Below, piece after piece: positions 1 to 12,539 of a stretch of DNA of 12,539 nt. Position 1 is the first letter of the stretch. Each line of letters opens with the position of its first letter. Under the pieces are notes generated by a model. It did not search any database and was not told where the DNA came from. It saw only the letters and a list, made by a program, of their open reading frames with translations. The DNA lies in the NCBI GenBank assembly GCA_028694545.1, contig JAQVKV010000016.1, positions 1-12,539 of the forward strand, in the 5' to 3' direction. This stretch comes from Zavarzinia sp. (GTDB taxonomy: Bacteria; Pseudomonadota; Alphaproteobacteria; Zavarziniales; Zavarziniaceae). Made by a program: the position numbers and the translations under genes.

Positions 1-1307
1 TTGTCCTCGTTGTAGCGGGCATCCGGCCACAGGATCGGGCTGCCCACGGCGTCGCCGATGACGACGAAGCGCGCGCCATAGACACCGACCGCAAGGCACA
101 GCACCGTCACCGCGATGACGACACGGGGATAACGGTCGAATTTCGCATACTTCCAGATCGTCTCGACCCAGGTGGTGCGGGCGCGGAAGCGCTTCGGGCG
201 TGGCATCAGGCACAGCAGCGAGGCCGTGAAAACGAGTGCGGGCGCGATCGCCAGCAGCCAGGCACCACAGATGATGCCGAGCACCTGAAGGCTGGGCACG
301 CCGATCATGACGAGCACGAAGAATCCGCCCGCCGCCGCGACGATCGCCGTCAGGCTGGGCACGAAGACCTGCGCCAGGCCGCCGACCACGGCATCCCCCA
401 TCGAGACGCCGGGTTGCAGCCGCTCGAACACCCGCGACATGAACTGCACGCAATGCGACAGCACGATGGCGAAGACAAAGACCGGCAGGATGATCAGCAA
501 CGGATCAAGGTTGTAACCGACCAGGGCCATCACGCCGGTGCCCCAGAGGGTACCGACCGCCGCCGTCAGCATGGGAATGAGCACCCCCATCCACGAGCGG
601 AAGTAGACGTAGAGAATGAGGCCCGAGAACACCAGGGAGATGCCGATCAGGACGATCGTGGCGCCGAGATCGTTATAGATCGTACCGAGCAGGACCGGCC
701 GGCCAACCATATGCACCTTGATGCCGTTGGCCGCTTCCTTGGCCCCCAGTTCCTCGATGAAGGTAACCAGCGTGGCGTAGTCCGTATCATCCTTGAAGTC
801 GGCGATGATCATGCCCGCCTTCTCGTCGTTGGAGACGAGGAGACCCCGGTACTGCGCCTTGACCGCCGCCTCGAAAGCCGCCCATTCCTCGGGCGCGCGC
901 GGCAGGTCGGGCCAGGCGATGGCGTTGATGTCGATACGCCCGGCCGAACCGACAATCGCCTTGGTCTTGCGCAGGGTCAGTGCCTGCACCAGGTGACGCT
1001 CGACCGAGGGGTGGAAGTAGATCTCGTCCGCGACCCGCTTGTAGGCGGTCATGAACTTCTCGTTGTAGATCGTGCCTTCCGTGTTCTCGACCATGATCAG
1101 GGTCGTGTTCGCGCCGCCGAACTGGGCGCCGAACTTCGCCATCAGCTCGACGTTCGGATGGTGGATGGGCAGCATCGCCTCCAGCACCACCTTCAGCGAG
1201 AGATGAGTGAACGACATGTAGCCGAGAAATGCCGTCAGCACGAGCATGCACGCCGCGATAATGGCGGCGCGGCGGCGGACGGCGGCCGCGATCCTGTTCG
1301 CGATCAT
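1..1307 (-). CDS. RND/MMPL-superfamily transporter, C-terminus beyond the window
   Basis: Partial gene: 435 codons are visible from an ATG at 1307-1305, and the frame is still open at base 1. The product looks like a COG1033-type RND exporter of the inner membrane. After a short Arg-rich N-terminus comes one membrane helix (about residues 14-33), then a soluble periplasmic domain of about 180 residues. A block of hydrophobic helices follows (about 210-370) containing the sterol-sensing-like stretch NLDPLLIILPVFVFAIVLSH, and another helix starts near 396, as expected for a half-duplicated RND topology. The start has a near-perfect Shine-Dalgarno (AGGAGGT, 7 nt spacing) and overlaps the stop of the YCF48-like gene as ATGA, so the two are translationally coupled. 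Substrate is unknown; from context (DUF1302 porin-like protein, monooxygenase) a lipid or hydrocarbon is a reasonable guess. Family call is firm, function is inferred. Confidence 0.88.
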   Translation of the reverse strand, partial: MIANRIAAAVRRRAAIIAACMLVLTAFLGYMSFTHLSLKVVLEAMLPIHHPNVELMAKFGAQFGGANTTLIMVENTEGTIYNEKFMTAYKRVADEIYFHPSVERHLVQALTLRKTKAIVGSAGRIDINAIAWPDLPRAPEEWAAFEAAVKAQYRGLLVSNDEKAGMIIADFKDDTDYATLVTFIEELGAKEAANGIKVHMVGRPVLLGTIYNDLGATIVLIGISLVFSGLILYVYFRSWMGVLIPMLTAAVGTLWGTGVMALVGYNLDPLLIILPVFVFAIVLSHCVQFMSRVFERLQPGVSMGDAVVGGLAQVFVPSLTAIVAAAGGFFVLVMIGVPSLQVLGIICGAWLLAIAPALVFTASLLCLMPRPKRFRARTTWVETIWKYAKFDRYPRVVIAVTVLCLAVGVYGARFVVIGDAVGSPILWPDARYNED

Positions 1308-2404
1308 TGCGTAACCTCCTGGATGTCGTTCGATTTCTCCTGGGGCGCGTAGGGGCCGCTGGCGTGGGCCGCGGCAAGGATCAGACCGCCCTGCCCGACC
1401 GCGAGCGCGCGCCCGTCGTCGCCAAGGGCGACACCGCCCAGCCAGAGATAATTGAGCCCCACGGCCGGGGCCACATTGGCGGCATCGAGCCCCTTCGGCC
1501 CGACGGTCATCAGCAAACCATTGCCGACGACGACGCCCTCCCGCCCATTGGTGGAAACATCGACAGCCAGCAGGTGCTGCTCGGTTCCAGTCGCAACCGG
1601 CGCGGCGGACCAAACGCCTTCGCTCGCGGACAACGCCAGCAGCGTCCCGTTCAGACCGACGGCATAGCCCCGATTCCCAACGAGGGCGACGTCGAGCAGG
1701 CTCGGATAGGCCTGTTCGGTAACAACCCTCCACACAGCGCCGCCATCCTCCGTCGCCGCGATGACCCCGAATTCGCCGACGACAACAGCGTGCTGCTCGT
1801 CGAGCGCGGAAATGCCGCTGAGGCGGGGCTTGTCGCGCCCCTGGTAATCCGAAATCTCCGACCGGCTCCAGCTTTTGCCGCCGTCCCGCGTCATCAGGAT
1901 CGCGCCCTCGTGACCAACGACCCAGCCGACCTTCTCGCTCGCGAAGTCAACGTCACGCAGATAAAGGCCGGGCTCTTCGTGAATGAGTTTCCAGTTCCGC
2001 CCCTGCGCGTCACTTTCCAGAATGCGGCCGCGATGGCTGACGGCGATGAAGCCGCCCTTGGGGCGCCGCGCAACGCGACGCAGGAGATCGTCGGTCCCGC
2101 TATCGACCAGCGTCCAGGCGCCCTGCCCTTCGGCTGCTACGGCGACAGCACCGTGATATCCGGTCGCGACCGCCATGCCGTCATCGATGACGATGCCGAA
2201 CAATGAATCGGGGAACAGACGAGACGGCTCCGCATCCGCCCTGGCCGGACCGACGACGCCGAACGTGGACGCAGCGACGATCCCGGCTCCACCCAGAGCC
2301 AGAAGATGCCGCCGGCTGATGTTTCCGGCCGGCCGATATGCCCTACTCCGCGCCGCGTCACACGTCTGGTGACCGGCACCCTCCCATTTCGAGAACGCTC
2401 GCAC
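1304..2404 (-). CDS. Secreted YCF48/BNR-repeat beta-propeller protein (HCF136-like)
   Basis: A 366-residue protein. Residues about 29-56 form a signal peptide with a twin-arginine look (SRRHLLALGGAG, then a hydrophobic stretch and ARA before DA), so export to the periplasm, possibly by Tat, is likely. The mature part has repeated blade motifs of the YCF48/sialidase-like propeller, for example GWVVGHEGAILMTRDGGKSW and AVVVGEFGVIAATEDGG. The family includes the plant/cyanobacterial photosystem II assembly factor, but in heterotrophic bacteria these proteins occur beside RND transporters and DUF1302 proteins, as here; their role there is not settled. The GTG start at 2404 is chosen because GGGAGGGACAGCG stands just upstream and no ATG lies before the signal peptide. 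The stop overlaps the RND start (ATGA). A scaffold or accessory role for the RND pump is inference. Confidence 0.85.
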   Translation of the reverse strand: MRAFSKWEGAGHQTCDAARSRAYRPAGNISRRHLLALGGAGIVAASTFGVVGPARADAEPSRLFPDSLFGIVIDDGMAVATGYHGAVAVAAEGQGAWTLVDSGTDDLLRRVARRPKGGFIAVSHRGRILESDAQGRNWKLIHEEPGLYLRDVDFASEKVGWVVGHEGAILMTRDGGKSWSRSEISDYQGRDKPRLSGISALDEQHAVVVGEFGVIAATEDGGAVWRVVTEQAYPSLLDVALVGNRGYAVGLNGTLLALSASEGVWSAAPVATGTEQHLLAVDVSTNGREGVVVGNGLLMTVGPKGLDAANVAPAVGLNYLWLGGVALGDDGRALAVGQGGLILAAAHASGPYAPQEKSNDIQEVTQ

Positions 2405-2445: not shown

Positions 2446-2473
2446 GCCACCCTTACTGCAAGATCGTTGCCAA
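2446..2473 (-). promoter_or_regulatory. Sigma-54 (-24/-12) promoter for the YCF48-RND pair
   Basis: Reading the minus strand, TTGGCAACGATCTTGCA at 2473-2457 fits the sigma-54 consensus TGGCACG-N4-TTGCW. The invariant GG (2471-2470) and GC (2459-2458) are exactly 10 nt apart, and the -12 element is perfect. The -24 element has AC instead of CG at its last two bases. The predicted transcript start is near 2446, giving a leader of about 42 nt to the GTG at 2404. No hit of the GATTGATC motif was seen close upstream. This is the weakest of the three sigma-54 matches in the window. Confidence 0.55.
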
Positions 2474-2648
2474 CCGGCTCGATGCGGCAGTGCAAAATTG
2501 GTAACAAATTGAATTTGCTTGATTTTTTTAAATTTCGTGACGTGAGGCGACACGCAACGGCAACGCGATGATGCGATGCACATTTCTGATTTGAGACAGG
2601 TCCGATCGCCTGTGGCGAATTTGAATGATTGAATGGCGCAACGGCGCC

Positions 2649-2689
2649 GGCCTGACCGGTGTATCCTCTGAGGATACACCGGTCAGGCC
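2649..2689 (-). repeat. Perfect 20-bp inverted repeat (hairpin) between the DUF1302 and YCF48 genes
   Basis: Two 20-bp arms that are exact reverse complements are separated by a single base (2669); the core reads CCTGACCGGTGTATCCTC / GAGGATACACCGGTCAGG. It lies 15 bp after the DUF1302 stop in the direction of transcription. An RNA hairpin this long should be very stable, so it may end or attenuate transcription, or protect the 3' end of the DUF1302 mRNA. There is no U-run after it on the minus strand, so it is not a textbook intrinsic terminator. The rest of 2405-2703 holds an A/T-rich patch (about 2495-2535) and the sigma-54 promoter, and no gene. Confidence 0.7.
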
Positions 2690-2703
2690 CGCTCCAATCC
2701 GGA

Positions 2704-4602
2704 TCAGAACTGGAAGGTCATCGAGAATTCGATGTTGTCCACGTGATCGGCGATGCCGAGCACGCCCTGTTCGGGGTCCGCCTCGAAATGGGTGAGCTCG
2801 ATGCGGGGACGGATGTGATCGCCGAAATAATTCAGGTCGATCCGCTGGCGGAGGGCGAAGCCAGCGTTCTGGATATCATAGACAACCAGCAGTTCGGTCC
2901 CCAGCTTGCCGTCATCAAAATTGTGGCTGGCAAGCAGCGTCGCGTAATTCTGCACCGGATGAAGCTTCGCGCCATAGGCGGCATAGGGAGCCTGGAACAG
3001 CAGGTCCTCGCCATTCGGCGTGACGATGGTGAAGAACTGCACGCTCGTGAATATGCTGGTGTCCTGCTCGGTCCAGAACGGCAACCAGAGGAAATAGTCG
3101 GCCCCGATCATGAAGGAGATCTGGTCCCTTTCGGTCACCCCGCGCGACGGATCGACGATCAGGGCCGCCGTGCCTTCCTCGCTGTCGCCAAAAACCGTGG
3201 TCGCGATCGCGCGATTGAAAGGCTTGTCGAATTCATAGGAAAATTCGCTGCGCAGGACGGGCGAGACATCCTTGGGCCCGAGGCGCCATTCGACCATGTC
3301 GCGGCTGAAACTGGCGCCGACCAGCTTGCGCCGGTAGTTGTAGTCGAGGTCGAACTTGACGTTGACCGAACAGAACGAACCACCGGGATAGGGGCAGCCG
3401 AGCACCCCTGTCTGGATTGCCGAGGCATCGGCGCCACCGCGCAGCGCGGGCACATAGACACCCTGCACGACGGCCTCCGTCGTCGCGGCGTCGAGCGGCA
3501 CGACGGTGACCGCGTTGCCGCCATCATGCAACGCGTTGCCGACCACGACGTCGGCCCCGGTCAGCTTCACGATCGGCATATCCTGATAACCATAGAGAGC
3601 ATTCAGGGTGGCCTCGCCGCCGGCGACGTCGAACTTCAGGCGCGCGCCGAGGGTCGGCTCGTCCATCATGAAGCGGTCCGGCTCATTGTCGCTCAGGCTT
3701 GCCCCGAAGTAGGCGACGCCGCGACCGCTTGCCTTGTCGATCAGCAGGGGGTAAGGCAGGCCGTAGAGCCCGCCCGAGGTGGCATCGCCTGGCGTCGGAT
3801 TGTTGATGACGAAGCGGCTGTGGTGGTACTCCGGCATATAGATGAGTTCGAGCTTGGGCCTCTCGATCCCCACGGCGCCGAAAGCGTCGCCAATGCCGAG
3901 CCGGCCGAGATCGAGGTCGACCGCCGTCATCCAACTCGGGATGCGCATCTCGTCGGAATCCCCGAAGATGAATTTCTGGCGATAGTCCTGAGCGTGCAGG
4001 ACATCGAGCAAGCGGATGCCGTCCGATTGCCCCCAGGCGCGCACGAACTTGCCGATCTTGACGGCGTAACGGTTCTCCGGATCCGTCACCTTGACTGCAA
4101 ATTCCCGGATCATCTCGTCGTTGAAGTCTGAGAAGAAGACGTTCTGCTCGTCCTCGCTGCCGAAGGGATCACGCGGCGGCATGGCCAGCGGTCCGCCGGC
4201 CGTCCCCGCGCCGGCCCCGTTCAGGTGGTAGCGGAACTGGTCGCGGAAATCGGGCGAGCTGTAGTCCTGGATACCCCGTCCGACCAGATCGCCGCCAATG
4301 TCGCGATAGAGGTCGCCACGCAGCCAGAAATCGGCCGTCACCGTGACGTTGCTGGTCGGCCGCCAGGCCGAGGTCAGTTCGAGCAGATAGGCGGCCTGGC
4401 CGATCTCGACCCCACCCCCGGTGACGGCCTTGTCATAGGCAAGGGCAAGGCCCTGGCGCAGCCGGCCACCGATGGTGAAACCGTCCGCCAGTTCTGTCTC
4501 GGCCAAAGCCGGCGCCGCGGCAACGGACAGCAGCAGAGCGGACGCCACGATCACGCGGCGCGCGCGGCGACACTCTATTATAGGGGACTTGGATTTCGGC
4601 AT
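2704..4602 (-). CDS. DUF1302-family outer-membrane protein
   Basis: A 632-residue protein. The start at 4602 is preferred over the longest frame (to 4812) because it has a strong site (CCAGGGAGGAAGA before ATG), gives a standard signal peptide (Arg-rich n-region, hydrophobic core, ALA before ETE near residue 34) and lies downstream of the predicted sigma-54 transcript start. The DUF1302 signature is clear near residues 180-210: VKIGKFVRAWGQSDGIRLLD, then a DxR-type motif. The chain ends in FSMTFQF, an outer-membrane beta-barrel C-terminal signal. Two cysteines around residues 400-410 (GCPYPGGSFC) could form a disulfide in a loop. DUF1302 proteins are predicted barrels often found with YCF48, DUF1329 and RND genes in hydrocarbon- and lipid-degrading bacteria; no DUF1329 gene is seen here. 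Passage of a hydrophobic monooxygenase substrate or product is inferred from the shared promoter type and divergent arrangement. Confidence 0.87.
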   Translation of the reverse strand: MPKSKSPIIECRRARRVIVASALLLSVAAAPALAETELADGFTIGGRLRQGLALAYDKAVTGGGVEIGQAAYLLELTSAWRPTSNVTVTADFWLRGDLYRDIGGDLVGRGIQDYSSPDFRDQFRYHLNGAGAGTAGGPLAMPPRDPFGSEDEQNVFFSDFNDEMIREFAVKVTDPENRYAVKIGKFVRAWGQSDGIRLLDVLHAQDYRQKFIFGDSDEMRIPSWMTAVDLDLGRLGIGDAFGAVGIERPKLELIYMPEYHHSRFVINNPTPGDATSGGLYGLPYPLLIDKASGRGVAYFGASLSDNEPDRFMMDEPTLGARLKFDVAGGEATLNALYGYQDMPIVKLTGADVVVGNALHDGGNAVTVVPLDAATTEAVVQGVYVPALRGGADASAIQTGVLGCPYPGGSFCSVNVKFDLDYNYRRKLVGASFSRDMVEWRLGPKDVSPVLRSEFSYEFDKPFNRAIATTVFGDSEEGTAALIVDPSRGVTERDQISFMIGADYFLWLPFWTEQDTSIFTSVQFFTIVTPNGEDLLFQAPYAAYGAKLHPVQNYATLLASHNFDDGKLGTELLVVYDIQNAGFALRQRIDLNYFGDHIRPRIELTHFEADPEQGVLGIADHVDNIEFSMTFQF

Positions 4603-4684
4603 TCTTCCTCCCTGGCCACAGCCTTGGTGCCTCGTTGAAACCGGTGGCAGTTCCATTCGTTTTCGGACGAAACCCAACCGATTT

Positions 4685-4711
4685 GAATACATCGAAGCAA
4701 GTGGCATGCCA
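4685..4711 (-). promoter_or_regulatory. Sigma-54 (-24/-12) promoter for the DUF1302 gene
   Basis: On the minus strand TGGCATG (4711-4705), CCAC, TTGCT (4700-4696) fits the consensus TGGCACG-N4-TTGCW with one mismatch in the -24 box and the required GG-N10-GC spacing. The -24 box is identical to that of the tmo promoter. The predicted start is near 4685, giving an 83-nt leader to the ATG at 4602. A GATTGATC site lies about 125 bp upstream, at a normal distance for an enhancer site. Confidence 0.72.
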
Positions 4712-4803
4712 GGCGTTACAGCGCGGCGCGGCACGGGAAACGCCAGCCCGCACGCCACCTTGCGGCGCTTCGATACGGCACCGCGGCAAGCCCCTGTAAT
4801 CCA

Positions 4804-4817
4804 TTTGATCAATCGAA
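4804..4817. promoter_or_regulatory. Candidate activator-binding site 1 (GATCAATC core)
   Basis: TTTGATCAATCGAA is a 14-bp dyad (TTTGAT/ATCGAA, one mismatch) whose core GATCAATC (4807-4814) recurs twice more in this intergenic region. It resembles the TTGATCAA-rich sites bound by DmpR/XylR-type activators. It lies about 125 bp upstream of the DUF1302 transcript start. Binding is inferred. Confidence 0.5.
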
Positions 4818-5111
4818 CCGGGCGGGTTGACGAATTCAGAAAGACACCGCGCCCACCCTCTCCCGCGGCGGCATGCGGAGCGTGTTACCAGACAGGTTTC
4901 CGCGCGCCGCGTTCCCGGCGCGGGCCCGTGGCACGTAATGTCCGCAAACGGGCCAGATCCGGCATGACAAGACCCCGACCACAGTCTAATTTCACGAATG
5001 AGGAGACGTCAGGGGCCAACCGGGGGGATGGGGCCGCTGGCCATAACAAGAAACAAAGAGAAACGCCATGCAGCTTGACCGCGAAGCCGCCGGACCGTCG
5101 CAATTCGTCTC

Positions 5112-5123
5112 ACGATTGATCGC
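5112..5123. promoter_or_regulatory. Candidate activator-binding site 2 (GATTGATC core)
   Basis: CGATTGATCG (5113-5122) contains the GATTGATC core at 5114-5121 and is itself a short dyad (CGAT-TG-ATCG). It lies about midway between the divergent promoters. Binding is inferred from the repetition of the core. Confidence 0.4.
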
Positions 5124-5234
5124 CGCCGACAGGGCGACATATTGAGCCGCTTGCCGCGTGGCCGCGGCGTCAACCACGGGCAATGCACGAAATCGGTAAG
5201 TGATGGACGGAGGGGCCGTCGCGTTGACCGCTGA

Positions 5235-5253
5235 TTTCATGAAACGATCAATC
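5235..5253. promoter_or_regulatory. Candidate activator-binding site 3 (TTTCATGAAA plus GATCAATC)
   Basis: A perfect palindrome TTTCATGAAA (5235-5244) is followed after one base by the third GATCAATC (5246-5253). It is about 255 bp upstream of the predicted tmo transcript start, somewhat far but workable for a looping enhancer site. Binding is inferred. Confidence 0.4.
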
Positions 5254-5476
5254 CCCGCAGCAGCAGCCATACGTCGCGCCACAAGGCCGTGCCGCAACCC
5301 CGGCCGACCCCGCGGCGCAACAACGAACGCGGGTTCGCGTCGGGCAAGAACACGGAAACGCGTTCCCCTTCGGGCGCTACCGGCGCTGGTGCGCTGCAAC
5401 ATGAGAGGTCCCGGCCCATGCCCCCATCCCGCCGTGACCGTGTCGCAGACAAGCAAAGCGGCGGGATCGGAACGCT

Positions 5477-5503
5477 TGGCATGATCATTGCTGTCACTGA
5501 CGA
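5477..5503 (+). promoter_or_regulatory. Sigma-54 (-24/-12) promoter for the tmo operon
   Basis: TTGGCATGATCATTGCT at 5476-5492 matches TGGCACG-N4-TTGCW with one mismatch and exact GG-N10-GC spacing. The predicted start is near 5503, with an 83-nt leader to the ATG at 5586. A sigma-54 promoter is what a XylR/DmpR-type activator needs, and such an activator is encoded just downstream of the operon. Confidence 0.8.
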
Positions 5504-5585: not shown

Positions 5586-7082
5586 ATGTCTAAGCTGGCT
5601 TCAAACGAATATTACGATCTCGTCCGCACGACGAACTGGACGCCGCGCTATGTGGACGAAGCGGAGCTGTTCCCCGAAATGATGTCGGGAGCGCGTGGTA
5701 TTCCGGCCGAGGCGTGGGAAACTTTCGACGAACCCTACAAGGTTACCTACAGCGACTATGTCGCGACCCAGCGCGAAAAGGACGCCGGCGCCTATTCCGT
5801 GAAGGCGGCCCTCGAGCGCGCCAATTACATCGACAGCGCGGATCCGGGTTGGGTCAGCACGCTGCAGGCGCACTACGGCGCCCTCGCCGTCGCCGAGTTC
5901 GCGGCGGCCACCGCGGAAGCCCGCATGGCACGTTTCTCGCGCGCGCCGGGCAATCGCAACATGGCCACCTTCGGCATGCTGGACGAAATGCGCCATGGCC
6001 AGATCCAGCTCTTCTTCCCGCACGAGCACACGAAGCGCAGCCGTCAGTGGGACTGGGCTCACAAGGCGATGCACACCAACGAATGGGCCGCCGTCGCCGC
6101 GCGTCACATGTTCGACGACATGATGTTCACGCGGGATTCGGTCAGCGTCGCCATCATGCTGACCTTCGCCTTCGAGACCGGCTTCACCAACATGCAGTTC
6201 CTCGGCCTCGCCGCCGACGCCGCCGAAGCCGGTGACCACACCTTCGCCAGCCTGATCTCGAGCATCCAGACCGACGAATCCCGTCATGCCCAGCAGGGCG
6301 GCCCGGTGCTGAAGATCCTGATCGAGAACGGCAAGAAGGACGAGGCGCAGAAGATGATCGACGTCATCTTCTGGCGTGCCTGGAAGCTGTTCTCGGTGCT
6401 GACCGGCCCGATCCTCGACTATTACACCCCGCTCGAACACCGGAAGCAGTCGTTCAAGGAATTCATGCAGGAATGGATCATCGGCCAGTTCGAGCGCCAG
6501 CTGAACGACCTTGGCCTTGATCTGCCCTGGTACTGGGACGAGTTCGTCCGCGCCCTCGACGAGACGCATCACGGCATGCACATGGGTGTCTGGTTCTGGC
6601 GCCCGACCGTGTGGTGGAACCCGGCCGCCGGCGCGTCGCCCGAGGAGCGGGAATGGCTGGAAAGCAAGTACCCGGGCTGGAACGCCACCTTCGGTCGCTG
6701 CTGGGACGTCATCACCGAAAACCTGCAGAAGGGCCGCGAGGAACTCACCCTGCCCGAGACCCTGCCGACGATCTGCAACATGTGCAACCTGCCGGTGGTC
6801 GGCACACCGGGTGACGGCTGGAATGTCAAGGATTACCAGCTCGTCCACGAAGGTCGCCTCTATCACTTCGGCTCCGAGGTCGACCGCTGGTGCTTCGAGC
6901 AGGACCCCGCCCGCTATCAGGGTCACATGAGCGTCGTCGACCGTTTCCTGGCCGGCGAAATCCAGCCGCAGAACCTGGCCGGCGCGCTCCTCTACATGAG
7001 CCTGAATCCGGGCGAGATCGGCGTCGACGCCCACAATTACGCCTGGGCCGGCGTCGGCAAGCAGAGCCACGCCGCCGAGTAA
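5586..7082 (+). CDS. tmoA: Toluene/alkene monooxygenase hydroxylase alpha subunit (TmoA-like)
   Basis: A 498-residue catalytic subunit of a soluble diiron monooxygenase hydroxylase; it inserts one O atom from O2 into an aromatic ring or alkene. The six diiron ligands fall at the same numbers as in toluene-4-monooxygenase: E104, E134 and H137 (DEMRH), E197 (FETGF), E231 and H234 (DESRH). The catalytic-pocket T201 and N202 plus Q228 are also present. Pocket positions 100 and 103 are Leu and Ala, where the T4MO enzyme has Ile and Gly as far as I recall. The C-terminal part (about 388-450) carries the YHS-like CNMCNLP region typical of this group. Start is supported by GGGAGGGACAGCG directly before ATG. 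It is the first gene of an operon after a sigma-54 promoter. Length and motifs fit TmoA, and also isoprene (IsoA) and Xanthobacter alkene monooxygenases, so the physiological substrate is uncertain. Confidence 0.95.
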   Translation: MSKLASNEYYDLVRTTNWTPRYVDEAELFPEMMSGARGIPAEAWETFDEPYKVTYSDYVATQREKDAGAYSVKAALERANYIDSADPGWVSTLQAHYGALAVAEFAAATAEARMARFSRAPGNRNMATFGMLDEMRHGQIQLFFPHEHTKRSRQWDWAHKAMHTNEWAAVAARHMFDDMMFTRDSVSVAIMLTFAFETGFTNMQFLGLAADAAEAGDHTFASLISSIQTDESRHAQQGGPVLKILIENGKKDEAQKMIDVIFWRAWKLFSVLTGPILDYYTPLEHRKQSFKEFMQEWIIGQFERQLNDLGLDLPWYWDEFVRALDETHHGMHMGVWFWRPTVWWNPAAGASPEEREWLESKYPGWNATFGRCWDVITENLQKGREELTLPETLPTICNMCNLPVVGTPGDGWNVKDYQLVHEGRLYHFGSEVDRWCFEQDPARYQGHMSVVDRFLAGEIQPQNLAGALLYMSLNPGEIGVDAHNYAWAGVGKQSHAAE

Positions 7083-7115
7083 CGCGGACACAGACAACCA
7101 GACAAAAGGCAAGTC

Positions 7116-7159
7116 GGAGGGGGTTTCACGCCCCCTCCCCCTATCCGGTAAAGGGGAGG
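7116..7159 (+). promoter_or_regulatory. Alternative hairpins in the tmoA-tmoB gap
   Basis: GGAGGGGG (7116-7123) can pair with CCCCCTCC (7131-7138) around a 7-nt loop. The same C-rich strand, as CCTCCCC (7134-7140), can instead pair with GGGGAGG (7153-7159), which is the ribosome binding site of the next gene. The two pairings exclude each other. The first would leave the tmoB site open, the second would hide it. It may also protect the mRNA or set the alpha:gamma ratio. Confidence 0.5.
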
Positions 7160-7166
7160 AAGAACC

Positions 7167-7427
7167 ATGGCAATATTTCCGCTCTCGTCGAATTTTGAAG
7201 GTGATTTCGTCATCCAGCTCGTCGTCGTCGACGATGCCTCGACCATGGACGAAGTCGCCGCCACCTGCGCCGTTCACTCGGTGAACCGCCGGGTCGCGCC
7301 GCAGCCCGGCAAGGTCATGCGTGTCCGCCGTCATTCCACGGGCGAAGTCTACCCCCGTGACATGCAGGTGAAGAGTGCCGGCCTGCTGCCGACCGAAACC
7401 ATTGACGTCATTTTTTCCGACATCTGA
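7167..7427 (+). CDS. tmoB: Monooxygenase hydroxylase gamma subunit (TmoB-like)
   Basis: An 86-residue protein matching the small ubiquitin-fold gamma subunit of the T4MO-type hydroxylase in size, order and sequence (starts MAIFPLSSNFEGDF; RRVAPQPGKVMRVRRHSTGE and the YPRDM segment are typical). It packs on the alpha subunit in the (alpha-beta-gamma)2 hydroxylase and has no metal ligands of its own. It sits 84 nt after the alpha gene, the longest gap in the operon, with a strong site (GGGGAGGAAGAACC before ATG) that may be masked by a hairpin. The cytoplasmic role in the hydroxylase is by family knowledge. Confidence 0.93.
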   Translation: MAIFPLSSNFEGDFVIQLVVVDDASTMDEVAATCAVHSVNRRVAPQPGKVMRVRRHSTGEVYPRDMQVKSAGLLPTETIDVIFSDI

Positions 7428-7444
7428 ATACAAGAGAGACGAGC

Positions 7445-7783
7445 ATGGCATTCGAGAAAATCTGCTCGCTCGACGACGTCTGGGAAGGCGAGATGGAGGA
7501 ATTCACCACGGCCGAAGGTCGTGATGTCCTCGTCGTCTGCATCGAAGGCGGCAAGATCAAGGCCTTCCAGTCGATGTGCCCGCATCAGGAGATCGCGCTC
7601 ATCGACGGCACATTTGAAAACGGCGTGATCACCTGCAAGGCCCATCTCTGGCAGTTCGACAGCGAGACCGGTCAGGGCCTGAACCCGACCGACTGCAGGA
7701 TCGCGGAATATCCGATCAAGATCGACGGCGACGACGTCTTTATCGACGTCGCCGGCATCGAACCCTGCAAATCGCATACGTAA
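7445..7783 (+). CDS. tmoC: Rieske-type [2Fe-2S] ferredoxin of the monooxygenase (TmoC-like)
   Basis: A 112-residue soluble Rieske ferredoxin that carries electrons from a reductase to the hydroxylase diiron centre. Cluster ligands are C45 and H47 (CPH) and C64 and H67 (CKAH), the same numbers as in T4MO ferredoxin. The size equals that of TmoC. It follows the gamma gene by 17 nt with an AGAGAGACGAGC site. A dedicated ferredoxin places the system in the four-component class and apart from three-component phenol hydroxylases and methane monooxygenase. Its electron donor, usually the TmoF reductase, is not encoded in the window. Confidence 0.95.
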
Positions 7784-7796
7784 CCGGGAGAGGAAC

Positions 7797-8114
7797 ATGA
7801 GCACCCATAGCGCCGCCAGTGAAGGCTATCGCAACAACAGGGTCGGTCCGATCCTGCGTGCCGGCGAAGTGGCCCAGGCCGCCATCCAGGCGGTCGAGGA
7901 CGACAACCCGGGCAAGAAGATCCACGTCGAGGACCGGACAGCCTACGTCCGCATCGAGTGCGAGGACGAATGCATCCTGACCCGCGCGTCGATGGAGGAG
8001 GCCCTCGGCCGGCCGTTCCAGATGCGCGAGATCGAGATCAATCTCGGCTCCTTCTCGGGCCAGATCGATACCTCGCCGGACCGCATCCGCTTCTACCTCG
8101 CCAAGCATCTCTGA
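7797..8114 (+). CDS. tmoD: Monooxygenase effector (coupling) protein (TmoD-like)
   Basis: A 105-residue member of the MmoB/DmpM/TmoD family of cofactor-free effector proteins that bind the hydroxylase near the active site, tune O2 activation and regiospecificity, and couple NADH use to oxidation. Typical stretches are [20 protein letters not shown] near the N-terminus and the [15 protein letters not shown] strand region. It starts 13 nt after tmoC with a GGGAGAGGAAC site. Length and position in the operon match TmoD. Confidence 0.93.
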
Positions 8115-8145
8115 CAAGAAACCAATTCCGGGAAGGAACCCCAAG

Positions 8146-9138
8146 ATGTCCGCCGCCCCCGAGCCCCTGAAGCCGCTCAAGACCTGGTCCCATCTCGCCG
8201 ACCGACGCAAGCGTCCCAGCGAATACGACATCGTCAGCACACGGCTGCACTATCGCCGTCGCGACCCGAATGCGCCCTGGGAGCTCGACCCCAATCTGCC
8301 GATGAACGACTGGTACCGGAAGTACTGCAACGAGAGCCCGCTGAAGCATCCGGATTGGGATCTGTTCCAGGACCCGGACCAGCTCGTCTACCGGACCTAC
8401 AACATTCTCCAGGACGGCCAGGAAGCCTACGTCGGTGGTCTGTTCGACCAGTTCAGCGACCGCGGCCACGACGAGATGATCTCGCGCGAATGGATCGCGA
8501 CCCTCGCGTCCTTCTTCGCCCCCGCCCGCTATCTCTACCACGGCCTGCAGATGGGCTCGGCCTATGTCGCCCAGATGGCGCCGGCGAGCACCATCACGGC
8601 CTGCCTCTACCTGCAGTCGGCCGACAGCCTGCGCTGGGTCACCCACACGGCCTACCGCACGGTGGAACTCTCCAAGGCGCAGCCGGACCTCGGCTTCGGC
8701 AAGGACGAGCGCAAGCACTGGGAAAATGATCCCCAGTGGCAGGGCTTCCGCCGTCTGCTGGAGGAAGGCCTCATCGTCTGGGACTGGGCGGAAGCCTTCG
8801 TCGTCTTCAATCTCGTGCTGAAGCCGGCGGTCGAGGAAGCCCTGCTCGGTGTCCTCGCCGATGCCGCACGCAGCAACGGCGACACGCTCTACAGCCTGCT
8901 CTCCCAGGCGCAGATGCGTGATGCGGAGCGTCACCGGCGCTGGGCCTCGCGCCTCGTCGAAATGGCGATGACAGTCGAAAGCAACAAGGACTGGTTGCGG
9001 GCGCGCGTCGCCGACTGGACACCGCGCGCCGAAGTGGCCATCGCCGACTACTGCAAGGCGCTCGGCGAAGCCGAGGCCGGCGCTCGCGCCATCGAGCGCA
9101 TGCATGCGTTCCAGCGTGGCCTCGGCCTGCGCGACTGA
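8146..9138 (+). CDS. tmoE: Monooxygenase hydroxylase beta subunit (TmoE-like)
   Basis: A 330-residue structural subunit of the hydroxylase, related to the alpha subunit fold but without diiron ligands. The segment FQDPDQLVYRTYNILQDGQE (about residues 76-95) is the hallmark of the T4MO-type beta subunit, and the length is close to that of TmoE. It starts 31 nt after tmoD with a GGGAAGGAACC site. It is the last gene of the operon here: 203 nt with a possible terminator follow, then the regulator. A tmoF reductase, which comes next in the known tmo, iso and alkene monooxygenase operons, is absent. Confidence 0.94.
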   Translation: MSAAPEPLKPLKTWSHLADRRKRPSEYDIVSTRLHYRRRDPNAPWELDPNLPMNDWYRKYCNESPLKHPDWDLFQDPDQLVYRTYNILQDGQEAYVGGLFDQFSDRGHDEMISREWIATLASFFAPARYLYHGLQMGSAYVAQMAPASTITACLYLQSADSLRWVTHTAYRTVELSKAQPDLGFGKDERKHWENDPQWQGFRRLLEEGLIVWDWAEAFVVFNLVLKPAVEEALLGVLADAARSNGDTLYSLLSQAQMRDAERHRRWASRLVEMAMTVESNKDWLRARVADWTPRAEVAIADYCKALGEAEAGARAIERMHAFQRGLGLRD

Positions 9139-9341: not shown

Positions 9342-11126
9342 ATGGCAGCGGTCATCCGAAATTTTGCCACCGCAAGAAACAACATGGCGGACGAGAATTC
9401 ACCATCCCAAAGGTCGCGGAATTTTCCCGAGATGGACGATCTCGCAGCCCGCCTGCGCTTCTGTCCACAGGTAGGGCGGATCTGGCTCGACGACAACCGG
9501 ATGGTCCTCCTGCACAACCATTCGCTGGGCGCCCTGCGCAACGAACTGATCGAGACCATCGGCCTTCAGGGCGCGCGCGCGCTGCTGACCCGCATGGGCT
9601 ATGCCTCCGGCGCGCAGGACGCGGAACTGGCAGTCAAGGTCCGTCACGGCCGTGACTTCTTCGATTTCTTCACGGTCGGCCCCCAGCTCCACATGATCGA
9701 GGGCATCGTCACCGTGGAACCCGTTCGTGTCGAATCCGACGTGAACACCGGACGTTTCTATGGCGAGTTCATCTGGCACGACTCCTGCGAGGACGAAGTG
9801 CACATCGCATCCCACGGCATCGGCACCGACCCCGCCTGCTGGATGCAAATCGGTTATGCCTCAGGTTATACCAGCATCTTCATGGGTCGCCCCATGCTGT
9901 TCCGGGAAGTCGAATGCAGGTCCATGGGCCACGCTGCCTGCCGCATCATCGGCAAGCCGGTCGCGGAATGGTCGGACGCGGACGAGGACCTGCGATACCT
10001 GCAACCGCATGCCTTCGCCAACCGGGGCAGCCAGGGCCCCATCGTCGTGAATGCGACGGCCGCCGGCATGCCCGCGCCCGAGCTGATGGAGACGAGCCGT
10101 TCTCCGGTCAAGGAACTCGTCGGCGCCTCGGCCGGCTTCAACACCGTCTGTCACATGCTCGAGAAGGTCTCGCGTACCAATGCGACCGTGCTGCTGCTCG
10201 GCGAATCCGGCGTCGGCAAGGAGATGTTCGCGCAGACCCTGCACCGTATCAGCGCGCGCGCCGACGGGCCCTTCATCGCGGTCAACTGCGCGGCCATTCC
10301 CGAACACCTGATCGAATCCGAACTGTTCGGGGTCGAGAAGGGGGCCTATACGGGCGCCGTGACTTCGAGGCCTGGCCGCTTCGAGCGGGCCAATGGCGGC
10401 ACATTGTTCCTAGACGAGATCGGCACCCTCAGCCTTGCCGCGCAGGGCAAGCTGCTGCGCGCCCTGCAGGAGGGCGAGATCGAGCGCGTGGGCGACCAGC
10501 GCAGCCGCAAGGTGGACGTGCGCATCGTCGCGGCCACCAATGTCGAACTGCGTCGCGGCGTCACCGAGGGCAGCTTCCGCGAAGATCTCTTCTACCGGCT
10601 GAACGTCTTTCCCATCCACATCCCGCCGCTGCGGGACCGGCGGGCCGACATCCCCCTGCTGCTCAACCATTTCCTTGGCTACTTCTGCCAGCGTCACGCC
10701 AAGACGCTGACCGGCTTCACCCAGCGTGCGATCACCGGCCTCTATTCCTACGGCTGGCCCGGCAACGTGCGCGAGCTGGAGAACATGGTGGAACGCGGGG
10801 TGATCCTGGCACCCGAGGGCGGGGCCATCGACCTGTGCCATCTCTTCACTTCGGGTGAAAAATTCGATTCGGTCGTGCTCGGCATGGATCGGGAAGGTCG
10901 CCTCAATCCGGTGACCGAAGAGCAGAACGCCTCAGGCTCGCCCTCGACCACGTCGAGCCCCGATCAATTGGCGCAGACTGTCCTGCGTTCCCGCATTCCG
11001 CTCGACCAGTTGGAGGAAAGCCTGCTGCGGGGCGCGGTGGAACAGGCCGGCGGCAATATTTCCGAGGCGGCACGCCTCCTCGGCATCAGCAGGGCGCAGC
11101 TGGCCTATCGCCTCAAACGCGGCTAG
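9342..11126 (+). CDS. Sigma-54-dependent aromatic-responsive activator (XylR/DmpR/MopR type)
   Basis: A 594-residue enhancer-binding protein. Domains: XylR_N-like sensor with V4R fold (about 30-206), linker (207-255), AAA+ sigma-54 interaction domain (256-490), long linker, Fis-type HTH (570-593). The V4R zinc site C166, E189, C192, C200 has exactly the spacing of MopR C155, E178, C181, C189; by the same offset of 11, H117 and W145 match the MopR phenol ligands H106 and W134. The AAA+ part has Walker A GESGVGKE (287-294), GAYTGA sigma-54 loop (334-339), Walker B GGTLFLDEIG and REDLFYRLNVF with the arginine-finger region. The HTH reads GGNISEAARLLGISRAQLAY. Binding of an aromatic effector would relieve repression of the ATPase and switch on the tmo operon and probably the envelope genes. 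Start at 9342 has GGGGGGAAATC upstream; M15 is an alternative. Confidence 0.95.
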   Translation: MAAVIRNFATARNNMADENSPSQRSRNFPEMDDLAARLRFCPQVGRIWLDDNRMVLLHNHSLGALRNELIETIGLQGARALLTRMGYASGAQDAELAVKVRHGRDFFDFFTVGPQLHMIEGIVTVEPVRVESDVNTGRFYGEFIWHDSCEDEVHIASHGIGTDPACWMQIGYASGYTSIFMGRPMLFREVECRSMGHAACRIIGKPVAEWSDADEDLRYLQPHAFANRGSQGPIVVNATAAGMPAPELMETSRSPVKELVGASAGFNTVCHMLEKVSRTNATVLLLGESGVGKEMFAQTLHRISARADGPFIAVNCAAIPEHLIESELFGVEKGAYTGAVTSRPGRFERANGGTLFLDEIGTLSLAAQGKLLRALQEGEIERVGDQRSRKVDVRIVAATNVELRRGVTEGSFREDLFYRLNVFPIHIPPLRDRRADIPLLLNHFLGYFCQRHAKTLTGFTQRAITGLYSYGWPGNVRELENMVERGVILAPEGGAIDLCHLFTSGEKFDSVVLGMDREGRLNPVTEEQNASGSPSTTSSPDQLAQTVLRSRIPLDQLEESLLRGAVEQAGGNISEAARLLGISRAQLAYRLKRG

Positions 11127-11172: not shown

Positions 11173-11808
11173 ATGGCGACCAGCAAGGGCCGTCGCGCAA
11201 TCGAAGTGAAACGGTCAGCGCCGGACAGCCCGCCTCTCCCGTTCCCGGACGCCCCCGGAGAGGAAGGCGACGGAACGAAGACGCTGGCCGAACTGGCTTA
11301 CCGGCGCATCCGGGACCTGATCATCGCCGGCGATCTCGCGCCCGACGAGAAGCTGCGCATCGAATATCTGCGCAGAGCCCTTGACATTGGTGCCAGCCCC
11401 TTGCGCGAAGCCCTCTCCCGTCTGTCATCCCACGGGATCGTCGAGATGGAAGGGCAGCGTGGCTTTCGCGTCGCCTCCGTCTCGCTCCCCGCACTCTGGG
11501 ACATCACCGAGACGCGACTCCTGCTCGAAGCCATGCCTTGCGGCGCTCCATCGAGCGGGGCGACGATACGTGGGAGGCATCGGTCGTCGCCGCCTACCAT
11601 CGGCTGCACCGGGCGGAGCAGCGCCGCCAGGCGGCTGCCGGCCGAGCGGGATCTCGCGCATGAACACCGCGCCATCATGGATGCGGCCCTCGCCCGCAAT
11701 GCGGACGAGGCCTGCCGACTCTCGGACGAACACATCATGCGCACGGCAATGGCGATTGCGGCGATTCTGGCGGGACAAAGCCCGCGATCCACGCCGTCGA
11801 CGGCCTGA
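11173..11808 (+). pseudogene. Decayed GntR/FCD-family transcriptional regulator
   Basis: The N-terminal winged helix (about residues 38-105: TLAELAYRRIRDLIIAGDLA through SPLREALSRLSSHGIVEMEG and GFRV) is intact, and the FCD ligand domain starts normally (LWDITETRLLLEAM). At about 11535-11537 the frame slips: normal FCD sequence (LRRSIERGDDTWEASVVAAY, then HRLHRAEQRRQ) continues one frame over from 11538 and stops at TGA 11661-11663. Around 11640 the first frame becomes meaningful again (ERDLAHEHRAIMDAAL and a normal C-terminus). The middle FCD segment with the W-x-R-H-x-x-F-H-x-A-L motif, roughly 50 residues, is missing. So there is a one-base deletion and an internal deletion, and a metal-binding His is lost. 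The open frame could still give a protein with DNA-binding ability but no working sensor. A sequencing error could explain the one-base slip but not the missing block. Confidence 0.75.
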
Positions 11809-11865: not shown

Positions 11866-11942
11866 TGGTCGGGGCGACTGGATTCGAACCAGCGACTTCT
11901 TGCTCCCAAAGCAAGCGCTCTACCAGGCTGAGCTACGCCCCG
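11866..11942 (-). tRNA. tRNA-Pro (anticodon TGG)
   Basis: A 77-nt tRNA on the minus strand. Acceptor stem CGGGGCG/CGCCCCG with C1-G72 typical of bacterial tRNA-Pro, discriminator A, and the CCA end encoded (11868-11866). The D arm is AGCTCAGCCTGGTAGAGC. The anticodon stem CTTGC/GCAAG encloses TTTGGGA with anticodon TGG, and the T loop is GGTTCGAATCC. Confidence 0.97.
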
Positions 11943-11979: not shown

Positions 11980-12040
11980 TGGAGGGCTGGCCACTCGGTG
12001 CTTGCGAGCGACATCATTCGCCGTCAATATGCGCGCTCTT

Positions 12041-12127
12041 CCACCAGGGGGAGCCGGAGCGCCGGCTGAGAGGTTCCACGCGGAACGACCCCACGAACCT
12101 GATCCGGTTGATACCGGCGTAGGGATG
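12041..12127 (+). ncRNA. TPP (THI-box) riboswitch
   Basis: The conserved thiamine-pyrophosphate aptamer blocks are present in order: GGGGGAGCC, GCCGGCTGAGAGG (12061-12073), CGACCCC, GAACCTGATCCGG (12095-12107), TACCGGCGTAGGGA (ending 12125). The aptamer ends about 11 nt before the ATG of the ABC ATPase, so control is probably at translation start, with high TPP lowering expression. Confidence 0.95.
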
Positions 12128-12137
12128 GGTGCTGCCG

Positions 12138-12539
12138 ATGGTCAACAGCGACCGGCCGGCCGATGCCGGCATGTCCAACCGCGCGTCCTTTGCGCCTTGC
12201 GCCGGGATGGCGCCAGCGCTTGCCGTGCGCGGCGCGGCCCTTTCCTTCGGTTCGACGACCCATTTCCGCGATCTCGACCTCGACTTGCCTGGCGGACGCA
12301 CCACCTGCCTTCTCGGGCCGAGCGGCGTCGGCAAGTCCAGCCTGCTGCGCCTCGTCGCGGGGATCGGCATGGCGGGATTGTCGGGTCGGGTCACGGCGTC
12401 GGACGGGGCGACGCTGGCCGGGCGCACCACCTTGATGGCGCAACAGGATCACCTGCTGCCCTGGGCTTCCGTGCTCGATAACGTGATGCTGGGGGCGCGC
12501 CTGCGGGGCGACGCGCCGGATGCGACGCGGGCCCATGCC
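12138..12539 (+). CDS. ABC transporter ATP-binding protein, TPP-riboswitch controlled (ThiZ/SsuB-like), C-terminus beyond the window
   Basis: Open to the right edge, with 134 codons visible from the ATG at 12138. Walker A is LLGPSGVGKSS (about residues 58-68), and the Q-loop segment is LMAQQDHLLPWASVLDNVML, which is characteristic of the nitrate/sulfonate/HMP branch of importers, unlike ThiQ. With a TPP riboswitch directly upstream, the best guess is the ATPase of an importer for a thiamine pyrimidine precursor (HMP), as ThiZ of ThiXYZ. The start is uncertain: GTG 12129 and ATG 12171 or 12207 are in the same frame, and a TAG at 12120 limits the frame. A start at 12207 would fit the usual N-terminus of the family best (domain starts at APALAVRGAALSF). 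Confidence 0.85.
   Translation, partial: MVNSDRPADAGMSNRASFAPCAGMAPALAVRGAALSFGSTTHFRDLDLDLPGGRTTCLLGPSGVGKSSLLRLVAGIGMAGLSGRVTASDGATLAGRTTLMAQQDHLLPWASVLDNVMLGARLRGDAPDATRAHA

Follow-up and report, generated by a model that had tools for sequence, protein, structure and literature searches.

Conserved sigma-54 boxes and candidate activator sites suggest shared control of aromatic-oxidation and envelope genes in Zavarzinia sp.

Genes and promoter elements of the locus

The locus studied here is a stretch of 12,539 nucleotides of Zavarzinia sp. (contig JAQVKV010000016.1 of assembly GCA_028694545.1), below called the window. It makes up 12.5 kb, or 0.37%, of an assembly of 3,384,942 bases in 668 contigs that is 74% complete, and encodes a toluene/o-xylene-type diiron monooxygenase, a XylR/DmpR-class activator, a DUF1302 protein, a YCF48-like protein and part of an RND transporter. 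Sequence comparisons suggest that its aromatic-oxidation and envelope genes carry the same kind of switch and are probably turned on together. The principal features are:

1..1307, minus strand: RND/MMPL transporter gene, N-terminal 435 codons, running off the contig (PF03176, MMPL, 43.4 bits)
1304..2404, minus strand: YCF48-like (COG4447-type) propeller gene (PF14870, 73 bits)
2472-2457, minus strand: predicted sigma-54 box TGGCAACGATCTTGCA before YCF48-RND, GG-N10-GC
2704..4602, minus strand: DUF1302 gene, stand-alone copy facing tmoA, AmeA-like, predicted outer-membrane beta-barrel (PF06980, 31.6 bits)
4711-4696, minus strand: predicted sigma-54 box TGGCATGCCACTTGCT before DUF1302, GG-N10-GC
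5477..5492, plus strand: predicted sigma-54 box TGGCATGATCATTGCT before tmoA, GG-N10-GC
5586..9138, plus strand: tmoABCDE, toluene/o-xylene-type diiron monooxygenase (Pfam)
9342..11126, plus strand: XylR/DmpR-class sigma-54 activator gene (PF06505, PF02830, PF00158, PF02954)

The gene identities given in a preliminary description of this DNA, including that of the activator, were upheld by Pfam. Residues 1–490 of TmoA match toluene o-xylene monooxygenase 1t0q (E 3.9e-279). Toluene 4-/o-xylene monooxygenase operons carry their own reductase, TmoF; no tmoF was found in the tmo operon of the window, where the xylR gene comes after tmoE. The activator has XylR_N, V4R, sigma-54 AAA+ and Fis helix-turn-helix domains, matches DmpR/CapR 6iy8 (E 5e-139) and contains a GAYTGA loop, the GAFTGA-type loop being the sigma-54 contact loop; ten aligned relatives have GAFTGA or GAYTGA. 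The start of the RND gene overlaps the stop of the YCF48 gene; in a start-region alignment, 4 of 5 relatives resemble the window in the GTG start and ribosome-binding site of YCF48. The RND fragment matches the HAE3 family TIGR00921 with 83.6 bits, under the cut-off of 351.9, and for the full-length protein of a related locus (L007) this family is the best NCBIfam match, with 161.6 bits, also below the cut-off. The AlphaFold model of the DUF1302 protein is beta-rich with an N-terminal helix (mean predicted local distance difference test score 64, moderate confidence), and its top Foldseek matches are porins with template modelling scores to the query of only about 0.30–0.34, which we used only as support for the predicted barrel.

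The preliminary description placed three GG-N10-GC elements before these units, and its positions agree with the sequence letter for letter; TGGCATG and TTGCT are, as it stated, common to the tmoA and DUF1302 boxes, and the YCF48 box differs from TGGCACG at two positions. The reference consensus has a GG-N10-GC core and is TGGC-N7-TTGCA-like, as quoted in PMC4630880. Box scores, including the thresholds of 14.5 and 15 used below, come from a position weight matrix with approximate literature frequencies. An rpoN gene is present in the genome (contig C17), and a phenol-hydroxylase operon (Pfam) on contig C245 has a fourth sigma-54 promoter of this type, before dmpK.

The preliminary description proposed a genome scan to judge the rarity of such elements. 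Genome-wide, the pattern TGGC-N7-TTGC[AT] is barely enriched (42 matches vs 38 for the reversed control). When the window was searched loosely, with 3 mismatches allowed, 17 sites were found vs 20.5 expected in shuffles, an uninformative result without enrichment. However, 3 of the 42 matches cluster in this contig, vs 0.16 expected by length (Poisson about 6e-4). Ten of the 42 begin with TGGCA (tally); three of these are the boxes of the window, one precedes dmpK (C245) and another lies on C371. Two narrower patterns, both picked after the sites had been seen, gave 6 matches vs 2 in the control (TGGCAYG-N4-TTGC[AT]) and 7 vs 1 (TTGGCA-N6-TTGC[AT]), each with two in the window. Listed sites elsewhere, assigned by eye from open reading frames, stand before an allophanate-hydrolase-like gene (C118) and an LLM-type oxidoreductase gene (C658). 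A box near-identical to that of tmoA, TGGCATGATTATTGCT, was also seen before a LuxR-type gene (by eye) on contig C334 (L078, G000:C334, 5418–5433); it stands after a terminator-like stretch, and the best score there for an upstream activating sequence (UAS, see below) is 10.1.

Conservation of the boxes in relatives

Stretches from five relatives (G001–G005), assigned to the genus because the closest named loci belong to it, and from one family relative were compared with those of the genome of the window (G000); loci L082, L084 and L088 belong to G001, G002 and G003, respectively, L090 and L093 to G004, and L007 and L094 to one and the same genome. The tmoA box was found in all six genus genomes, own included, the YCF48 box in all five (of six) whose YCF48 region was covered, and the dmpK box in all five whose dmpK region was covered. 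The DUF1302 box is well matched in 4 of the 5 genomes with this gene copy, that of the fifth, L088, being weaker (TGGCATGAAGCTTGCG). Among the 16-mers of each upstream region, the box ranks first for conservation in anchored alignments, with 14/16 invariant columns for tmoA (6 sequences), DUF1302 (4) and YCF48 (5) and 12/16 for dmpK (5); over the whole upstream regions 15–23% of the columns are invariant. The anchor was the sigma-54 box itself, which somewhat favours box conservation, and the DUF1302 alignment was made without L088 (G003), the YCF48 set without G003 and the dmpK set without G002. Conservation is the strongest of the sequence evidence for the boxes, and we regard the three sites as very probably real sigma-54 promoters. 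Further DUF1302 copies, 64–69% identical, are present in L092, L093 (G004) and L095 (G006), with no box of at least 14.5 before them; G006 has a second DUF1302 gene on contig C204.

Candidate activator sites

Sites of XylR/DmpR-class activators are described as paired palindromes of 16–20 nt, with centres 29–42 nt apart, lying 100–200 nt upstream (PMC6449761). A UAS position weight matrix with the consensus TTGATCAAATGATCAA was trained on sites lying upstream of the tmoA, dmpK and DUF1302 genes. Some of these sites were chosen for conservation, others because they resembled the AphR motif (PMC6449761); the training never included a YCF48 site. The putative sites in the window, with distances from the box of the gene concerned, are:

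2583..2598, minus strand: putative activator site TGTCTCAAATCAGAAA before YCF48, box -126, weak (UAS matrix score 14.6)
2613-2628, minus strand: weaker partner of the preceding site, 30 bp away (UAS matrix)
4797..4812, minus strand: putative activator site TTGATCAAATGGATTA before DUF1302, box -101 (12.0 without DUF1302 sites in training)
4827..4842, minus strand: putative activator site TTTCTGAATTCGTCAA before DUF1302, box -131, 30 bp from the preceding site (13.4 without DUF1302 sites in training, 1/200 shuffles)
5184..5199, plus strand: putative activator site TGCACGAAATCGGTAA before tmoA, conserved block in 6 aligned sequences (9/16 columns invariant; 11.8 when left out of training)
5236..5251, plus strand: putative activator site TTCATGAAACGATCAA before tmoA, box -241, conserved block in 6 aligned sequences (16.5, outside training, 0/200 shuffles)

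The class-left-out matrix, which gives the best values listed for tmoA (16.5) and DUF1302 (13.4), scores dmpK 15.7 (1/200 shuffles). With full training the site at 4797–4812 is the top match of the window, but it is itself a training site; at 5236–5251 about 9/16 columns are invariant. When the whole window was scanned, 6 of the 7 best matches (five distinct places, two training sites) lay upstream of the three promoters and the seventh inside tmoA. The dmpK and DUF1302 pairs, 32 and 30 bp apart, are within the spacing of PMC6449761, and searches with the plain consensus and for pairs were positive for dmpK (pairs) and for DUF1302 of the window.

Before YCF48, only the matrix trained on the other classes picked a conserved island, at -126. 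It is the top match in the window, L094, L084 and L082, i.e. in 4 of the 5 genus sequences, with 4, 2, 2 and 51 of 150 shuffles as good, respectively (7 of 150 for the top match of L091). For the score sum over the five sequences no shuffle of 150 was as good, and the window score of 14.6 exceeds those of five other sigma-54-like sites of the genome used as controls (5.1–10.2). Outside the genus, strong matches precede YCF48 in L012 and L014 (0/150 each) and a weaker one in L009 (12/150).

Several results weigh against these sites. The likeness of the consensus to the AphR motif of PMC6449761 arises partly by construction, and the tmoA sites, 52 bp apart and 240–300 bp upstream of the box, are outside the pattern described there. 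Before YCF48, the top match of L091 lies at -156, the match of L082 is the one equalled by 51 of 150 shuffles, and over a longer region the window site was equalled by 12/200 shuffles, which ranks it level with the allophanate control (12/200). With the plain consensus, the five genus sequences gave p values of 0.11–0.98 for single sites before YCF48, and pairs there were equalled by 21 to 125 of 200 shuffles; for the tmoA pair the window had 4/200 shuffles as good and L094 had 51/200, and the single dmpK site gave mixed p values of 0.01–0.33. No convincing site was found before DUF1302 of L084 (consensus and matrix), and none before that of L088 (consensus). From the sequence matches, XylR/DmpR-class sites appear clear before tmoA and DUF1302 and, taken by itself, weak before YCF48.

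The wider cluster and its distribution

On the single contig of L007, tmoEDCBA, DUF1302, YCF48, RND, a second DUF1302 gene (DUF1302b), DUF1329 and dmpKLMN are found, so that the families DUF1302, DUF1329, YCF48/COG4447 and HAE3-like RND occur together. In the genome of the window they are split between the window and contig C226, which carries the C-terminal part of RND (residues 496–786, L007 numbering, matched there), DUF1302b and DUF1329. The DUF1302b protein of C226 has no Pfam match alone and is 54% identical to the DUF1302 protein of the window. A site that resembles a box but falls within the beginning of DUF1302b (L007 10455–10470, same place in L094) was dropped, since it lies in coding sequence; it was not listed in L011, L076, L082, L086 or L091. 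Contig C245 carries dmpKLMNOP with a catechol 2,3-dioxygenase-type gene (Pfam) and a ferredoxin-like gene recognized by eye. From the layout of L007 we infer that C226 and C245 adjoin the window contig; if they do, the window is part of a toluene/benzene-to-catechol cluster enclosing a module of the AmeABCD type (see below). The ferredoxin-reductase-type protein of the C245 phenol-hydroxylase operon might serve both enzymes (window 7167–9138; L077 3105–4172).

The distribution set comprised 25 loci matched by the DUF1302 protein plus the window, with YCF48 covered in 20; related loci were counted apart and are not independent. Where a XylR-type gene lies in the covered DNA, always within 10 kb, 7 of 8 loci have a box of at least 15 before YCF48. 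Among loci with no XylR-type gene and 450 bp upstream covered, 2 of 10 have a box above 14 (L007, 15.1; L025, 14.3), and the other 8, hyphomonad loci, have no box above 10.0 there; L023 and L028 had too little upstream DNA for box scoring. The exception in the first group, L016 of Zavarzinia marina, speaks against the proposed link: a second module copy at 6595–13301, near tmo and 10 kb from xylR, has no box before YCF48. In L012, L013 and L014 the order is YCF48-RND-DUF1302-DUF1329-tmoABCDE, with a divergent xylR-type gene. One box precedes YCF48, the tmoA match starts 35–43 bp after the DUF1329 match, and no box lies between, which suggests that here the YCF48 module and tmoABCDE form one transcription unit behind one sigma-54 box. 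A search for DUF1302 on plasmids gave no match.

Function of the envelope set

Judged by gene families, the envelope genes encode an AmeABCD-type set. RND pumps usually export. AmeABCD of Castellaniella defragrans (PMC6394551) likewise lies in a catabolic island and consists of a DUF1302 outer-membrane protein, periplasmic DUF1329 and COG4447 proteins and an HAE3-type RND protein, a likeness seen at the level of gene families. The two differ in gene order, A-B-C-D there and C-D-A-B with a second DUF1302 here, and in substrate, monoterpenes there, not aromatics; the main text of PMC6394551 contains neither 'monooxygenase' nor 'toluene'.

Within the same regulon, the set could instead serve the uptake of hydrophobic substrates or their delivery at the outer membrane, a reading that we consider a serious contender. 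In P. putida the DUF1302/DUF1329 proteins PP_0765/PP_0766 and their partners PP_2018/PP_2019 are needed for the use of Tween 20 and were modelled as serving substrate transport (PMC10866462); a dedicated DUF1302 beside tmoA would also suit supply of the monooxygenase. Deletion of AmeABCD, on the other hand, raised Nile Red accumulation and lowered monoterpene tolerance (PMC6394551), and by analogy we weakly favour export over import of hydrophobic compounds.

Probable shared control and the acting activator

The preliminary description joined oxidation and envelope genes in a single regulon. This proposal is supported by sequence evidence: conserved sigma-54 boxes precede all three units, XylR/DmpR-class site matches lie upstream of all three (that of YCF48 weak by itself), a single XylR_N gene was found in the 74% complete genome, where rpoN is present, and L012–L014 look like one fused unit behind one box. 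One shared XylR-class control of the promoters is thus likely. The activator encoded at 9342–11126, just downstream of tmoABCDE and in the same direction, would sense an aromatic compound, bind the UAS sites roughly 100–300 bp upstream of each -24 box and open sigma-54 RNA polymerase at the promoters of tmoA, the stand-alone DUF1302 gene and YCF48-RND(-DUF1302b-DUF1329), and likewise at that of the phenol-hydroxylase/meta-cleavage operon of C245. The enzymes oxidizing toluene/benzene to phenol and catechol would then be made together with an AmeABCD-type envelope system that would carry hydrophobic aromatics through the envelope, more likely outward than inward, and so relieve solvent stress. 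Promoter use, acting activator, inducer and direction of transport are all inferred in this scheme; we claim no inducer, since a literature search for MopR pocket residues gave no match.

A real rival is control by two activators, in which the XylR protein of the window (X1) drives tmoA and a paralogue (X2), lost or unassembled here, drives DUF1302 and YCF48-RND. The six relatives searched have 1–3 XylR_N genes each, and X2, 74–76% identical, is found in G001, G002 and G004: it adjoins YCF48, directly upstream, in G001 (L082, 74%) and DUF1302 in G002 (L084, 75–76%), and lies near a second toluene monooxygenase in G004 (L090). Because this paralogue sits beside envelope genes, a single activator for all promoters is not proven. 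Two further points count against it: an assembly 74% complete could miss X2, and in G005, laid out like the window, the sole XylR_N gene found is 48% identical and on another contig, the tmo contig ending after tmoE. Nevertheless, with one XylR_N gene found in the genome of the window, a shared UAS motif ahead of every unit, though weak at YCF48, and C-terminal helix-turn-helix segments that are similar, though not identical, in X1 and X2, we consider control by two activators unlikely.

Less probable still is that the promoters are real but YCF48-RND answers to an unrelated enhancer-binding protein or stress signal, outside the aromatic regulon. The YCF48 UAS is the weakest, the genome has other sigma-54 activators (12 PF00158 matches, including weak ones), and upstream of YCF48 lies an inverted repeat whose core occurs once in the genome:

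2649..2689, no strand assigned: perfect long inverted repeat between DUF1302 and YCF48, core TGTATCC-N5-GGATACA at 2660-2678 (fold)

The 81-nt stretch around it (2630–2710) folds at -55.4 kcal/mol (z -8.4), and the repeat may be a hairpin/terminator or an operator. Among six genomes searched, its core occurs at a single place each in G000, G002 and G005 and is absent from G001, G003 and G004; a near form lies upstream of YCF48 in L082/L011, next to a different neighbour gene. Against an unrelated activator, the conserved -126 island is the top match of a matrix trained on other genes in 4 of the 5 genus sequences, and a XylR-type gene lies about 2–3 kb from YCF48 in L009, L011, L012, L013, L014 and L026. 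That the three sites arose by chance in a genome rich in GC, as the genome-wide pattern hardly above its reversed control and the lack of enrichment of loose matches would allow, is hardly credible in view of their clustering within 0.37% of the assembly and their strict conservation in relatives.

Other features of the window

A GntR-type gene follows xylR (11173–11808); only its N-terminal part matches, the C-terminal half appearing out of frame by eye, and no match to it was found in L080, L083 or L090 (tmo-xylR regions of relatives). Further downstream are a tRNA-Pro gene (11866–11942, minus strand) and a thiamine pyrophosphate riboswitch (12037–12143, plus strand), the latter before an ABC-ATPase-like frame judged by eye.

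Relation to known systems

The TbuT/tbuX regulon likewise brings together a XylR-class activator, a toluene monooxygenase and the gene for an outer-membrane channel. The channel, TbuX, is of the FadL family, not DUF1302, and that regulon is not known to include a YCF48-RND part. This toluene regulon is named in PMC6449761, which also describes the closest parallel, the AphR regulons of Betaproteobacteria: the same four families (COG4447, COG1033, PF07044 and DUF1302) are predicted there, in Burkholderia sp. 383, to be controlled by a XylR/DmpR-class activator whose binding motif is similar, and the AphR-linked envelope genes were proposed to help in coping with toxic aromatics. The differences are that in some betaproteobacterial species the set has AphS (GntR) and AphT (LysR) as further regulators (PMC6449761), whereas here, in an alphaproteobacterium, the sigma-54 boxes are separate and one more DUF1302 gene stands alone, facing tmoA. 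In Aromatoleum aromaticum EbN1 one NtrC/XylR-type activator, EtpR, governs a catabolic cluster and the 'efflux' cluster next to it. Sigma-54 motifs are present in both, and an EtpR deletion mutant loses the catabolic as well as the efflux transcripts (PMC4630880). The pathway there is the anaerobic one for p-ethylphenol, however, and the likeness holds at the level of an 'efflux' cluster. A Zoogloea phenol-hydroxylase cluster lists sigma-54 regulator, DUF1302 and DUF1329 genes (PMC7012976).

Since such joint control has already been predicted or shown (PMC6449761, PMC4630880), the idea is not new in kind. Literature searches for DUF1302/DUF1329, Zavarzinia with toluene or monooxygenase, COG4447/RND and AmeABCD/HAE3 in a partial library gave, among the matches listed, none that by title and abstract describes the regulon in Zavarzinia. 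On the sequence evidence, the system is not of a new kind; the locus is best seen as an alphaproteobacterial variant, well supported, whose additional feature is the stand-alone DUF1302 gene. More tentatively, soluble diiron aromatic monooxygenases of Alpha- and Gammaproteobacteria may possibly have the AmeABCD-type machine as a regular, conserved partner. One XylR-class regulon would then build oxidase and envelope system together, with a second, toluene monooxygenase-specific DUF1302 barrel as outer-membrane gate and, in some lineages, fusion into one transcription unit.

Significance

Two main degraders of benzene emerged from 13C-benzene probing, and Zavarzinia was one of them (PMC5627004). 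This makes the regulon relevant to bioremediation. The little-known DUF1302, DUF1329 and YCF48-RND proteins gain a concrete, testable role, in that they would be made with, and presumably for, aromatic oxidation, and the promoters and binding sites named here offer a handle on whether they serve export or uptake.

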